In this document: one piece after another, positions 47,187-59,176 of the stretch
How positions within the stretch are numbered: position 1 is the stretch's first letter
Layout of the letters: the number at the start of each line of letters is the position of its first letter
Origin: Bacteroidales bacterium
GTDB taxonomy: Bacteria; Bacteroidota; Bacteroidia; Bacteroidales; UBA3663
Assembly: GCA_024694125.1 (NCBI GenBank)
Contig: JAILKE010000077.1
Coordinates: forward strand, 1-64,000
Direction: 5' to 3'
DNA: 64,000 nt
Made by a program: the position numbers and the translations under genes
The notes under the pieces: model-generated
The model's input: only the letters and a program-made list of their open reading frames with translations
The model's database searches: none
Told to the model about the DNA's origin: nothing

Positions 47187-48062
47187 ATGCTCGAATATCT
47201 CTGTACCTCCCGTTCGAACGGCGTGACCCGCACCGGTTCGCCCTACTGCACAATGAAGTGCGCCAATCTGGAAGAAGTGATCAACATCGCCGTGTGGGAC
47301 TGTGCCCCAGAGGCAGGACCTACGCCGGGCCAGATTGTGCGGTTCCACTCTATTCAGGACCGAGATGGCAAGAAGTCGTGCAATGCTCGCGACATGGCGA
47401 CCGGACCCGTAGCGGACGAGACGCACCCGCTCTACAACCTGATGCCTCACCCCATCAGCCGCCGTGTGTGGGATGCCACCATTCAGCAGTTGACAGGCTA
47501 CTGCACGGACATGCAGTTGGCTGCCATCATCAACGACTTCGGGCAGAAACTCTATGATCCATACTCCAAACATCCTGCTGCCACGGGTATGCACCACGCC
47601 TTCCAGGGCGGTCTGCTCAACCACACGCACCAGATGCTGCAGATGCTGGCTGGCCTGTACCCCGCATTGCCCTACCCGATCAAGGTGGAGCGCTGCATAC
47701 TGGCCATCATGTTCCATGACTACGGCAAACTGATGGAGTACAACCGCGAGGGCGAGACGCAGGAGGATATGTACCTGCTGGGCCACATCTATATCTCCGC
47801 CCACAAGTTGCAGAACATCCTGGAACAGTCTCTCTGCCAGTCGCCCGAGGGCAAGCAGCAGTACGAGGAGGAGATCAAGCGCATCGTACACTGTGTCCTG
47901 GCTCACCACGGCGAGAAGGAATATGGCTCGCCTGTCGTGCCCTGCATGCAGGAGGCTGTCATCGTCAATTACCTGGACAACCTGTCGGCCAAAGCGGAGA
48001 ACATCAAGGACACCGGTAACATGGAACAGTCGTTCTGCCTCGGAACCCACGTAATCAAGTAA
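47187..48062 (+). CDS. YhaM-like HD-domain nuclease
   Basis: The protein is 291 residues. The N-terminal part (about 10-110) is an OB-fold-like nucleic-acid-binding region. The HD domain contains GMHHAFQGGLLNHTHQML, IMFHDYGKLMEY and HCVLAHHGEKEYG, which supply the metal-binding His/Asp residues, and AVIVNYLDNLSAK. YhaM (CBF1) proteins are 3'-5' exoribonucleases with this OB-HD order. It has its own consensus promoter. Alternatives within the HD phosphohydrolase superfamily are possible, but the OB-HD order and the HH residues favour YhaM. Confidence 0.8.
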   Translation: MLEYLCTSRSNGVTRTGSPYCTMKCANLEEVINIAVWDCAPEAGPTPGQIVRFHSIQDRDGKKSCNARDMATGPVADETHPLYNLMPHPISRRVWDATIQQLTGYCTDMQLAAIINDFGQKLYDPYSKHPAATGMHHAFQGGLLNHTHQMLQMLAGLYPALPYPIKVERCILAIMFHDYGKLMEYNREGETQEDMYLLGHIYISAHKLQNILEQSLCQSPEGKQQYEEEIKRIVHCVLAHHGEKEYGSPVVPCMQEAVIVNYLDNLSAKAENIKDTGNMEQSFCLGTHVIK

Positions 48063-54036: not shown

Positions 54037-54092
54037 TAGTCGATTGTATTTTTAATCCTCCCTCCCTTGTAGGGAGGGCTGGGGAGAGTCCT
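54037..54092. repeat. Solo Family 2 element end next to ilvE
   Basis: It has TAGTCGATTGTATTT, then CCTCCCTCCCTTGTAGGGAGGG and finally GGGGAGAGTCCT. The 37-nt tip matches the right end of the DUF559 element (59140-59176) in 33 positions, and the inner flank matches too. It ends 4 nt before the ilvE stop codon. No opposite end or nuclease gene is nearby. Confidence 0.8.
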
Positions 54093-54096
54093 CCTC

Positions 54097-55119
54097 TTAT
54101 TCAATAATGGTTACCCAGCCGTGAGTATCCTCGATATCACCGTACTGGATGCCACGCAAGGTCTCGTAGAACTTGGTGCAGACAGGGCCTGGCTTATCAC
54201 TTGGCAGGATGTTATAAACCTTGTCAGCATCCAGGTCATCAATGCGATGGATAGGAGCAATCACTGCAGCGGTACCGCACATAGCAGCCTCGTCGAGATA
54301 CTCAAGCTCCTCTACTGGCATTGGACGAACCTCAATCTTGTAACCCAAGTCCTTGGCTACCTGCTGGATAGACATATTGGTGATGGAAGGCAAGATAGAC
54401 TCCGATGCTGGAGTGACGTAGCTGTTGCCCTTGATGCCGAAGAAATTGGCTGGACCGCACTCGTCGATGAACTTCTTGCTGCGGGCATCGAGATAGATAA
54501 CGGCGCTGTAGCCCTTCTGGTGAGCCAGAACACCGCTGGCCAGCGAAGCAGCATAGTTGCCACCCACCTTGACACGGCCTGTGCCGAGCGGAGCTGCACG
54601 GTCGTAACCACGCATGATGCAGCATGGTGTAGCCTTGAATCCGTCCTTGAAGTATGGGCCTACTGGCATGACAAAGACGATAAACTCATACTGGTCAGCA
54701 GGATTGACACCGACCTGAGGGCCTGTACCGAACAGTACTGGACGGATATACATGGAACAACCAGTCTCGTACGGAGGTACCAGGTCTGCATTGAGCTTGA
54801 CTACCTTCTTGATAGCCTCTTCGAACAGGCCATCGGGCAGTGGTTGCATCAGGATAGTACGGCAGGTATCCTGCATGCGCTGGGCATTCTTGTCCATACG
54901 GAACACTCGTATCTTGCCGTCCTTGCCGCGGAAAGCCTTGAGGCCCTCGAAACCGGCCTGACCATAGTGCAGTACGGTAGCAGCCATGTGCATGGTCACC
55001 TCCTCACTCTCACTGACACGTAGTTCACCCCAGGCACCATTCTTATAGGTGCATCTTACATTGTAAGGAGCCTTTCTGTAGCCGAAGCCAAGCTTGCTCC
55101 AATCAATCTGTTCTGCCAT
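54097..55119 (-). CDS. ilvE: Branched-chain amino acid aminotransferase
   Basis: The protein is 340 residues. The PLP fold-type IV motifs are present: VLHYGQAGFEGLKAFR, GTGRVKVGGNYAASLASG with the PLP-binding Lys, LDARSKKFIDECGPANFFGIKG and EAAMCGTAAVIAPIHRI. It transfers amino groups to and from the keto acids of leucine, isoleucine and valine. Length and motifs are those of the bacterial ilvE type II group. The upstream region (TAAATTTG at 55232-55239) gives a likely promoter. A solo Family 2 element end touches its 3' side. Confidence 0.95.
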   Translation of the reverse strand: MAEQIDWSKLGFGYRKAPYNVRCTYKNGAWGELRVSESEEVTMHMAATVLHYGQAGFEGLKAFRGKDGKIRVFRMDKNAQRMQDTCRTILMQPLPDGLFEEAIKKVVKLNADLVPPYETGCSMYIRPVLFGTGPQVGVNPADQYEFIVFVMPVGPYFKDGFKATPCCIMRGYDRAAPLGTGRVKVGGNYAASLASGVLAHQKGYSAVIYLDARSKKFIDECGPANFFGIKGNSYVTPASESILPSITNMSIQQVAKDLGYKIEVRPMPVEELEYLDEAAMCGTAAVIAPIHRIDDLDADKVYNILPSDKPGPVCTKFYETLRGIQYGDIEDTHGWVTIIE

Positions 55120-57428: not shown

Positions 57429-57992
57429 ATGAAATATCTCATAGTTGGACTCGGCAACATCGGCGAGGAATATTGGGGCACACGCCACAATATAGGATTC
57501 CGTGTGGTCAATGCCCTGGCCGAAGCCCACGATGCTAAGTTTGAGGAGGCTCGATACGGCGCAACCTGCGAGTTCCGCGTCAAGAACCAGCAACTGCTGT
57601 TGCTCAAGCCCAACACCTACATGAACCTGTCCGGTTCGGCAGTACGATACTGGATGCAGGAGGAGAAGATTACCATCGACCACGTCCTCATCATCTGCGA
57701 TGACATCGCCCTGCCCTTCGGCACCCTGCGTATGCGTGCCAAAGGTTCGGCCGGAGGACACAACGGACTCAAGGACATCGCAGCCAAGTGCGGCGGCGAA
57801 GGTTTTGCCCGTCTGCGCTTCGGCGTGGGAGGAGACTTCCCCAAAGGCGCTCAATGTGATTGGGTATTGGGCCACTTCCCCCAGGAAGAAGAGGATCAAA
57901 TGCCCGAACGCCTTGAAGTAACAACCAAGTTTATCGAGACCTTCTGTCTGGAGGGTTGCTCCAATGCAATGAACAAGTACAATGGCAAATGA
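57429..57992 (+). CDS. pth: Peptidyl-tRNA hydrolase
   Basis: The protein is 187 residues starting [24 protein letters not shown], the classical Pth motif with the catalytic His in [26 protein letters not shown] and [13 protein letters not shown] complete the active site. It recycles peptidyl-tRNAs released from stalled ribosomes. The 3' end overlaps the S4-domain gene by 11 nt, so the two are co-translated, and the MBL gene lies 7 nt upstream. Confidence 0.96.
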
Positions 57993-58431
57993 AGTCCGTA
58001 TAGATAAATGGCTCTGGGCCGTGCGCATCTTCAAGACGCGCAGCATTGCCGCCGATGCCATCAAACTGGGCCGCGTCACCATTGGCGGCCAGAAAGTCAA
58101 AGCATCACGCACCGTGCATGTGGGTGAAATAATAGATGTTCGCAAACCTCCCATCACATACTCCTTCAAGGTGCTCGCCCTGACAGAGAATCGCATGGGC
58201 GCTAAACTCGTCCATGGCTTTATGGAGAACGTGACTCGTCAGGAGCAACTTGACTTGCTCCAGATGAACCGTATCTCGGGCTTCATTGACCGCGCCAAGG
58301 GCTTAGGCCGTCCTACCAAGAAGGATCGCCGCGACATTGATGACTTCAATACGCCAGAATATATTGATGAATTTGACTTCAGCCTCGATGACCTCGATGA
58401 TCCAGAGGTTTGGGCAGAAATGACAAAGTAA
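57982..58431 (+). CDS. S4-domain RNA-binding protein (HslR/Hsp15-like)
   Basis: The protein is 149 residues. The N-terminal S4 domain ([41 protein letters not shown]) is that of Hsp15, which binds 50S subunits carrying stalled nascent chains. The acidic C-terminus ([21 protein letters not shown]) is characteristic of Bacteroidota versions. Overlap with pth fits a shared ribosome-rescue role. The stop codon (58429-58431) directly touches the left end of the Family 2 element. Confidence 0.9.
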
Positions 58432-59176
58432 AGGACTCTCCCCGACCCTCCCTAAAAGGGAGGGAGAAAAAAAAATACATTCACGGATCATATAACCTAA
58501 TTGACTCTTATATATCCAAGGCTATTGAATATATTCGGAATTAATTCTAAATGCAGAACGACAAGGACTCTGAAACAAAGAACAAATTCTATTGGCATGA
58601 TACAGCCGATCCTATATTATATCCTCAACTTTTAGAGTATGCCAGATACAACAGACGTCATCCGACCGAATCGGAATCTGTTCTTTGGAATGTTCTGAAA
58701 TCTAGAGGACTGGGGGTACCCTTCCTGCGACAATTTATAATCGATCAATATATTGTAGATTTTGTATATAAGAAGGGCAAATTAGTGATTGAGGTAGATG
58801 GGGGCTACCACTCCGAGCCCCGACAAGCCATTGAAGACGAAAACCGCACCCGCAGACTGCAGTATCTTGGATATCGAGTACTGAGATTCACCAACGAAGA
58901 TATCGTTTTCAATATAGACTACGTCATAAAATCTATAAAATACAATCTTTAATACATATTATATAACAACTATCAAGTCAAAATATAATATGTCAACAAG
59001 GAAATTATTATGCAGCACAATCTCTCAGCAAAACGTTCAATTATCGTGGTTGAAAAATATTGCCACTCCTTGGGACATCCCAAGAAGCAAATTGCTGCAC
59101 CTTATTGTGCGAATCACAAATTAGTCGATTGTATTTATATTCTCCCTCCCTCATAGGGAGGGCCGGGGAGAGTCCT
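58432..59176. mobile_element. Family 2 inverted-repeat element carrying a DUF559 nuclease (element A)
   Basis: The left end (58432-58468) and right end (59140-59176) are inverted 37-nt copies, identical in 34 positions. Each folds into a CCCTCCCT / AGGGAGGG hairpin with outer bases AGGACTCTCCCC. The 745-bp unit carries one gene (58551-58952) and starts at the base after a stop codon. Its right end abuts the A run that forms the terminator of a putative small RNA. The inner DNA is AT-rich, unlike its neighbours. Confidence 0.8.
58551..58952 (+). CDS. DUF559 (Vsr-like) endonuclease-domain protein
   Basis: The protein is 133 residues. RRHPTESESVLWNVLKSRGLGVPFLRQFIIDQYIVDFVYKKGKLVIEVDGGYHSE contains the PD-(D/E)XK-type motif of DUF559 (PF04480): E in ESESVLW, D in IVDF, E-x-D in IEVDG. 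LQYLGYRVLRFTNEDI closes the fold as in very-short-patch repair endonucleases. Function in this family is not established. The gene is alone between inverted repeats and is clearly AT-richer than the flanking pth and cca genes. Confidence 0.9.
   Translation: MQNDKDSETKNKFYWHDTADPILYPQLLEYARYNRRHPTESESVLWNVLKSRGLGVPFLRQFIIDQYIVDFVYKKGKLVIEVDGGYHSEPRQAIEDENRTRRLQYLGYRVLRFTNEDIVFNIDYVIKSIKYNL

Follow-up and report, generated by a model that had tools for sequence, protein, structure and literature searches.

A DUF559 nuclease gene framed by inverted REP-like palindromes as a candidate minimal mobile element in Bacteroidales

The 745-bp unit at positions 58,432-59,176 (plus strand) of the window, by which we mean the whole 64,000-nt stretch of DNA analysed, is probably a minimal mobile element. 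Its sole gene encodes a DUF559 nuclease of the Vsr/EDxHD fold, and tagged REP-type palindromes form its two ends; we put the probability of this reading at about 0.7. The preliminary description had suggested that the nuclease gene provides the mobility of such a minimal element, and this suggestion is now well supported by empty sites, by a recurrent architecture and by in-frame units for which empty MetH alleles exist. Below, G000 designates the genome carrying the window, other G numbers designate the genomes of relatives, and L numbers designate loci.

The unit, its nuclease and its neighbourhood

The left end of the unit (58,432-58,474, plus strand) is a REP-like palindrome composed of an outward-facing tag (GGACTCTCCCC, 58,433-58,443), an 8-bp hairpin (58,446-58,464) and an AT-rich tail, and the right end (59,134-59,176, minus strand) is an inverted copy of it, with the hairpin at 59,144-59,162 and the tag at 59,165-59,175. 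When recomputed, the agreement between the two arms was 34 of the first 37 positions, the figure given earlier for 37-nt inverted ends, and 88% over 43 nt. Each arm also folds on itself, as had been noted, forming as single-stranded DNA an 8-bp hairpin of -9.2 kcal/mol on the left and -9.0 kcal/mol on the right (z -2.3 and -2.0, respectively). The only open reading frame between the inverted ends is the DUF559 (PF04480) nuclease gene (58,551-58,952, plus strand; 133 aa), and neither a DDE nor any other known transposase was found inside. The stretch from the gene to the right end (58,953-59,133) is non-coding, with no open reading frame of 60 aa or more wholly inside it, and is overlapped from 59,041 by an unsupported minus-strand frame. 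The G + C content is 0.40 in the gene and 0.39 in the unit versus 0.53 in the window, in agreement with the AT-rich base use described before.

On the left, the unit adjoins an intact gene for an S4-domain RNA-binding protein (57,982-58,431, plus strand) located downstream of pth. The stop codon of this gene, TAA, occupies 58,429-58,431, so that the unit does begin, as first described, at the base following the pth-S4 operon. On the right, the unit is abutted by the T-run in the terminator of a FopS-type sRNA (RF04319; 59,175-59,243, minus strand; 70.4 bits against a gathering cut-off of 56). This sRNA belongs to a dispersed paralogous family spread across the order, and it accounts for the second dispersed repeat at the right side of the unit. 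The junction of the unit, inspected for target-site duplication, sits in an A-run.

To our knowledge, DUF559 is a common family, in Bacteroidota among other groups, without an established role. The window protein matches its Pfam profile with an E-value of 1.5e-28 (99.2 bits, curated cut-off 20.6), and in the DUF559 alignment all of the family-conserved residues are intact, with E42, D70, E81, D83, H87 and D96 conserved; an E-x-D-G-x-x-H motif is found in 88 of 91 short DUF559 loci. An AlphaFold2 model of the protein (pLDDT 88) most closely resembles the homing endonuclease I-Bth0305I, the DUF559 protein NGO0050 and Vsr among PDB structures, with 3r3p as the top match (E 1.8e-5). Sequence profiles also support the likeness to I-Bth0305I and NGO0050, with a profile match to the EDxHD/Vsr-like fold at an E-value of 4e-7. 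The initial assignment to a Vsr-like nuclease with intact acidic motifs is thus borne out by the Pfam match, the conserved residues and the fold. A reading of the unit as a defence system was rejected, PADLOC having returned weak nuclease-domain matches only.

Empty sites and dispersed palindromes

Empty sites in close relatives, which the preliminary description had proposed to look for, were found in five congeners (G009, G013, G006, G001 and G002), where the S4 gene is followed by the FopS repeat within a few dozen bases. The site is filled in G011 (L053/L070), and in G010 the comparison is limited by a contig end. At a second site, rfb, a DUF559 unit is present in three congeners. A unit inserted in frame in MetH is found in G364 and G415, and the linker is uninterrupted in G061, G065, G108 and G242, which are listed in the same genus; the unit stands in place of linker residues, with no clear target duplication.

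The inverted hairpin ends are real, but they are not unique to the unit; the preliminary description missed that they form a dispersed REP-like family, with the unit as one member. A third, solo copy of the window-type palindrome lies within the window itself (54,041-54,092, minus strand), adjoining the stop codon of a branched-chain aminotransferase gene (54,097-55,119, minus strand), and further end copies were revealed by a BLAST search of the genome. The hairpin with its outer tag, GGACTCTCCCC-RR-CCCTCCC, was counted by pattern searches. The exact pattern, GGACTCTCCCCRRCCCTCCC, has 24 copies in G000, 23 in G011 and one in G009, and none in the 38 other relatives' genomes searched, while the reversed pattern, used as a control with up to two mismatches allowed, gave one match across all genomes. 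These counts are lower bounds because the genomes of the genus are fragmentary, with some contigs ending in repeats.

The 24 copies of G000 are distributed over 18 sites, of which 12 have a single copy, three have a direct pair and three, among them the DUF559 unit, have an inverted pair. They are often placed after stop codons, and their hairpins are C/G-rich. G011 is the sole congener found with a nuclease of the window type, at the same locus and with 63% identity. Of the 18 sites, no more than two coincide with any of the G011 sites compared, namely that of the DUF559 unit and that of a pair between uvrC and apt. As the sites are mostly unshared, the palindromes have spread separately in the lineages of G000 and G011, and their sequence has remained identical although the nuclease and the host genes have diverged. 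All three DUF559 genes of G000 lie inside inverted palindromes, and each has its own palindrome type (the other two at L009 and L011); the L009 type is also dispersed, with about eight further copies.

Two sites bear on what is actually inserted. In G006, which is empty at uvrC-apt, GTTTCACGTGAAA stands between the genes; we take it to be a parS-like motif. In G000, G011, G009 and G010, a version of GTTTCACGTGAAA is located between two inverted palindromes, which in G009 and G010 are of a different type. Similarly, G364 has two in-frame palindromes within its fused mutase (IcmF), and the sequence lying between them can be aligned to native IcmF. Since these inverted pairs enclose ancestral host DNA, at least some pairs represent two separate insertions, and a single palindrome appears to be the usual inserted unit. 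A tight MITE reading, with the whole inverted pair as the mobile unit, is therefore doubtful, and pairs framing host DNA likewise fit poorly with a one-piece transposon.

Palindrome and nuclease vary together to some extent, although the relatedness among the compared genomes was only partly controlled. Among pairs of loci with nuclease identity above 60%, 40% score at least 18 on palindrome similarity, compared with 0-6% below 60%; this rise is attributable to pairs from the same family. Palindrome and nuclease similarity are weakly correlated when different families are compared (0.14, with 4 of 500 permutations as large). A generic palindrome, CCCTCTCC...GGAGAGGG, occurs in 53 of 159 DUF559-positive and 21 of 235 DUF559-negative genomes (394 genomes, uncorrected for phylogeny). 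This link persists without family f45 (p 1.7e-5) but does not hold within family f33 (7/20 versus 4/21), and it is thus counted as weak support.

Recurrence across bacteria and inside reading frames

The architecture of the window unit recurs at DUF559 genes elsewhere. The two 400-nt flanks of each of 86 short Bacteroidota DUF559 genes were scored for their best inverted match to each other, and 52% of the genes reached the threshold of 18; the proportion was 3.5% when flanks were paired across loci and 7.5% for 147 genes neighbouring DUF559 at the same loci. The survey of hairpin flanks recommended in the preliminary description therefore gave a clear excess over both controls, and it is not the case that DUF559 genes normally lack such ends, as about half or more have them. 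In the printed alignments the ends share a common plan, namely an outward tag (GACCTC, ACCCC, GACCC or AATCCCCC), a linker, a C-rich stem, a loop and a G-rich stem. In the complete genome G425, the DUF559 unit has long, near-identical inverted ends with a score of 52.

Beyond Bacteroidota, the window protein used as a query for related loci gave no matches, whereas NGO0050 did. Of the loci found with NGO0050, 6 of the 14 scored reach 18, with clear cases in Sedimenticola, Marinobacter and Rhodanobacter and a shorter one in a Nitrospirae genome. Among loci on plasmids and chromids, 8 of 15 reach 18, including those of Pseudanabaena, three Deinococcus species and Sinorhizobium meliloti. DUF559 genes with inverted ends are thus present in at least five phyla (Bacteroidota, Cyanobacteria, Deinococcota, alpha- and gamma-Proteobacteria, and Nitrospirae). 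The flanks of the E. coli DUF559 gene ycjD were also scored and show no inverted palindromic ends. Given this case and the roughly half of DUF559 genes that fail the strict flank test, some members of the family are domesticated or decayed. In the three Deinococcus species (L309, L310 and L313), the DUF559 gene interrupts an hpaB...hpaE cluster at three different positions and in the opposite direction.

Many DUF559 matches sit within open frames of approximately 850-1480 codons. The hosts of those that were read, named from their sequences, are presumably LeuS (at a position in the editing domain), MetH (in the linker that precedes the cobalamin domain), HsdR and PurL, among others. In these copies the host frame is continuous, with no intron or intein seen, and both ends of the unit are translated into Pro/Gly-rich peptides (e.g., APQPPKGE...APPLGAGGA). 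The cross-locus null for the in-frame units is inflated, as all such ends are C-rich. The nuclease domains of LeuS (L043, L051, L102 and L105) and of MetH (L109, L117 and L128) occupy the same position in several genera, which may reflect either repeated homing or vertical inheritance from long ago. At four loci (L042, L106, L011 and L054), the nuclease frame runs into the downstream palindrome, and the C-terminus is encoded by the repeat.

Possible mode of spread, alternatives and known systems

The pairing of a DUF559 gene with hairpin ends in at least five phyla, even within essential genes, raises the possibility that the nuclease is the mover of the palindromes. In the mechanism that we propose, which takes up the second suggestion of the preliminary description, a nuclease recognising the hairpin, the nuclease would recognise its own palindrome (tag and hairpin), probably when extruded or single-stranded during replication, and would nick or cut beside it or at the target; repair of the lesion would then copy the whole unit or one palindrome to a new place, and solo palindromes would be the non-autonomous offspring of the unit. 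We know of no covalent intermediate formed by a nuclease of the Vsr/EDxHD fold, and thus copying would most likely proceed via host repair, in a homing-like or template-switch manner, rather than by transesterification. We therefore favour DUF559 and its palindromes as a putative nuclease-driven analogue of the RAYT/REP system, based on an unrelated enzyme. For other C-rich palindromes we are aware of no mover, and DUF559 nucleases are candidates for the enzyme, long missing, by which palindromes of this kind are spread. The wider proposition has, in our estimate, an even chance of being correct: that a superfamily of C-rich tagged palindromes found throughout bacteria has its dedicated mobility enzymes in the DUF559 nucleases, making up an element class in which a stand-alone nuclease of the Vsr/EDxHD fold, with neither transposase nor reverse transcriptase, spreads itself together with its hairpin ends, also in frame through essential proteins. 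No link between DUF559 and palindromes appeared in the titles, abstracts and passages of the literature covered; bioRxiv and subscription papers lay outside the search, and priority is uncertain.

An alternative hypothesis regards every DUF559 protein as a homing endonuclease specific to a single target gene or intergenic site, where it would cut the allele lacking the insertion, the palindromes serving merely as homology or structural arms. The closest solved catalytic domain is that of the EDxHD homing endonuclease I-Bth0305I, conserved host-gene positions are occupied in MetH and LeuS, patchily and in several genera, and the filling of the rfb site in three congeners is also in keeping with homing. 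However, the DUF559 unit is free-standing, with no intron or intein and no splicing element to protect the host gene, and it has palindromic ends, of which gene-less solo copies are dispersed at unrelated sites. In addition, homing enzymes of this type have been described with a long DNA-binding arm (PMC3943268), which is absent from the 133-aa protein. We consider homing in this strict form unlikely.

Still less probable is that a Y1/RAYT or other transposase moves the palindromes and that DUF559 is cargo or an accessory. The mobilisation of REPs by Y1 transposases is an established idea (PMC8266576), G000 and G011 each harbor one Y1 transposase gene, and it is not obvious how a metal-dependent nuclease could join strands by itself. 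Against this, the Y1 gene of G000 is located on contig C17, where no exact window-type palindrome is present, and it is DUF559 that is the gene repeatedly found between the ends in several phyla. Moreover, G425 contains no Y1 transposase despite the strong inverted ends at its DUF559 gene, and a RAYT is thus not required there. The comparison with REPtrons (REP/REPIN with RAYT, TnpA_REP) is instructive in both directions. In both systems, a single small enzyme gene is framed by tagged palindromes, with a cognate repeat for each enzyme, and the likeness, tested in G000, extends to dispersed solo and inverted-pair copies. In contrast to REPtrons, the framed gene here encodes a DUF559 protein of the Vsr/EDxHD fold in place of a Y1 HUH transposase, and in both G000 and G011 the Y1 gene is located elsewhere; the tags resemble GGACTC, GACC or ACCTC rather than GTAG; and the units are also found in frame within essential genes. 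CGTC-class REPs, which were reported without a dedicated transposase, and Rickettsia palindromic elements are likewise short tagged palindromes, often in inverted pairs and some of them in frame in protein genes (PMC3733652). CGTC-tagged REPs are defined by a CGTC (TGTC, CCTC) tag, an 8-9 bp stem starting with A/T pairs and a CCA tail, whereas the window palindrome, also with an 8-bp stem, has a GGACTC tag, a C/G stem start and an attached enzyme gene. Insertion sequences and MITEs resemble the unit in having inverted ends around one gene together with shorter derivatives, but the DUF559 unit possesses no DDE transposase, no clear target duplication was seen, and solo ends predominate.

A similarly improbable alternative is a housekeeping role, in which DUF559, acting in repair like Vsr or as a structure-specific nuclease, removes or controls hairpins or mismatches, and palindromes gather near it without being moved by it. 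Its fold and active-site layout resemble those of Vsr, the very-short-patch repair endonuclease that nicks T:G mismatches at methyltransferase sites, and E. coli ycjD is a single gene with no palindromes. Caulobacter VsrA, a DUF559-domain protein, was reported to trigger an SOS response when a cytosine methyltransferase is absent and was interpreted as a mismatch-repair enzyme (PMC12907096). We know of no description of palindromic ends for Vsr or VsrA. A housekeeping role is difficult to reconcile with the patchy presence and precise empty sites of the units, with several different copies per genome, with in-frame insertion into essential genes and with a location in the hpa cluster that differs among the three Deinococcus species.

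Finally, intrinsic terminators or generic hairpins lying by chance beside the gene, a reading that placement after stop codons and C/G-rich stems might suggest, are rejected as a highly improbable account of the ends, as the palindromes are translated inside reading frames, carry a conserved unpaired tag outside the hairpin, match between left and right far above control genes and, with each nuclease having its own type, are species-restricted in step with the nuclease, and the true terminator in the neighbourhood is that of the FopS sRNA.

If the unit is a mobile element as favoured here, the Pro/Gly-rich in-frame insertions in LeuS, MetH and other proteins of Bacteroidota would be explained as translated ends of mobile elements. 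Linking the two families opens both questions, the role of DUF559 and the mover of the palindromes, to a direct test that requires a single small protein and an oligonucleotide of 43 nt; a check for cutting or nicking of the hairpin by the purified nuclease had already been proposed.

Several minor features of the repeats were also recorded. The uvrC-apt and ackA-pta intergenic regions carry palindromes whose type differs between congeners (G000, G009, G010 and G011), as would be expected of hot spots or of a conversion from one palindrome type to another. At L048 (G010) and L064 (G009), a repeat, GCTAAAGC.TCGTCTTCTCGC...TTTTTGCTGCGAGGACC, is nested in the hairpin loop of a palindrome at a DUF559 end. 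At six sites of G000 (C13:5343, C77:276, C43:4522, C43:37785, C45:1089 and C44:1658), the palindrome lies within a larger repeat family with internal units of TTAATGAAAATTAATG...AAGATTA, and here the palindrome and the internal units are amplified together. On contig C36 of G000 (47,301-47,379; L021-L025), the tag GGGGAGAGTCC is repeated five times in tandem at a spacing of 17 nt, four times without a hairpin and with one full palindrome beside, suggesting that copying starts or ends at the tag.
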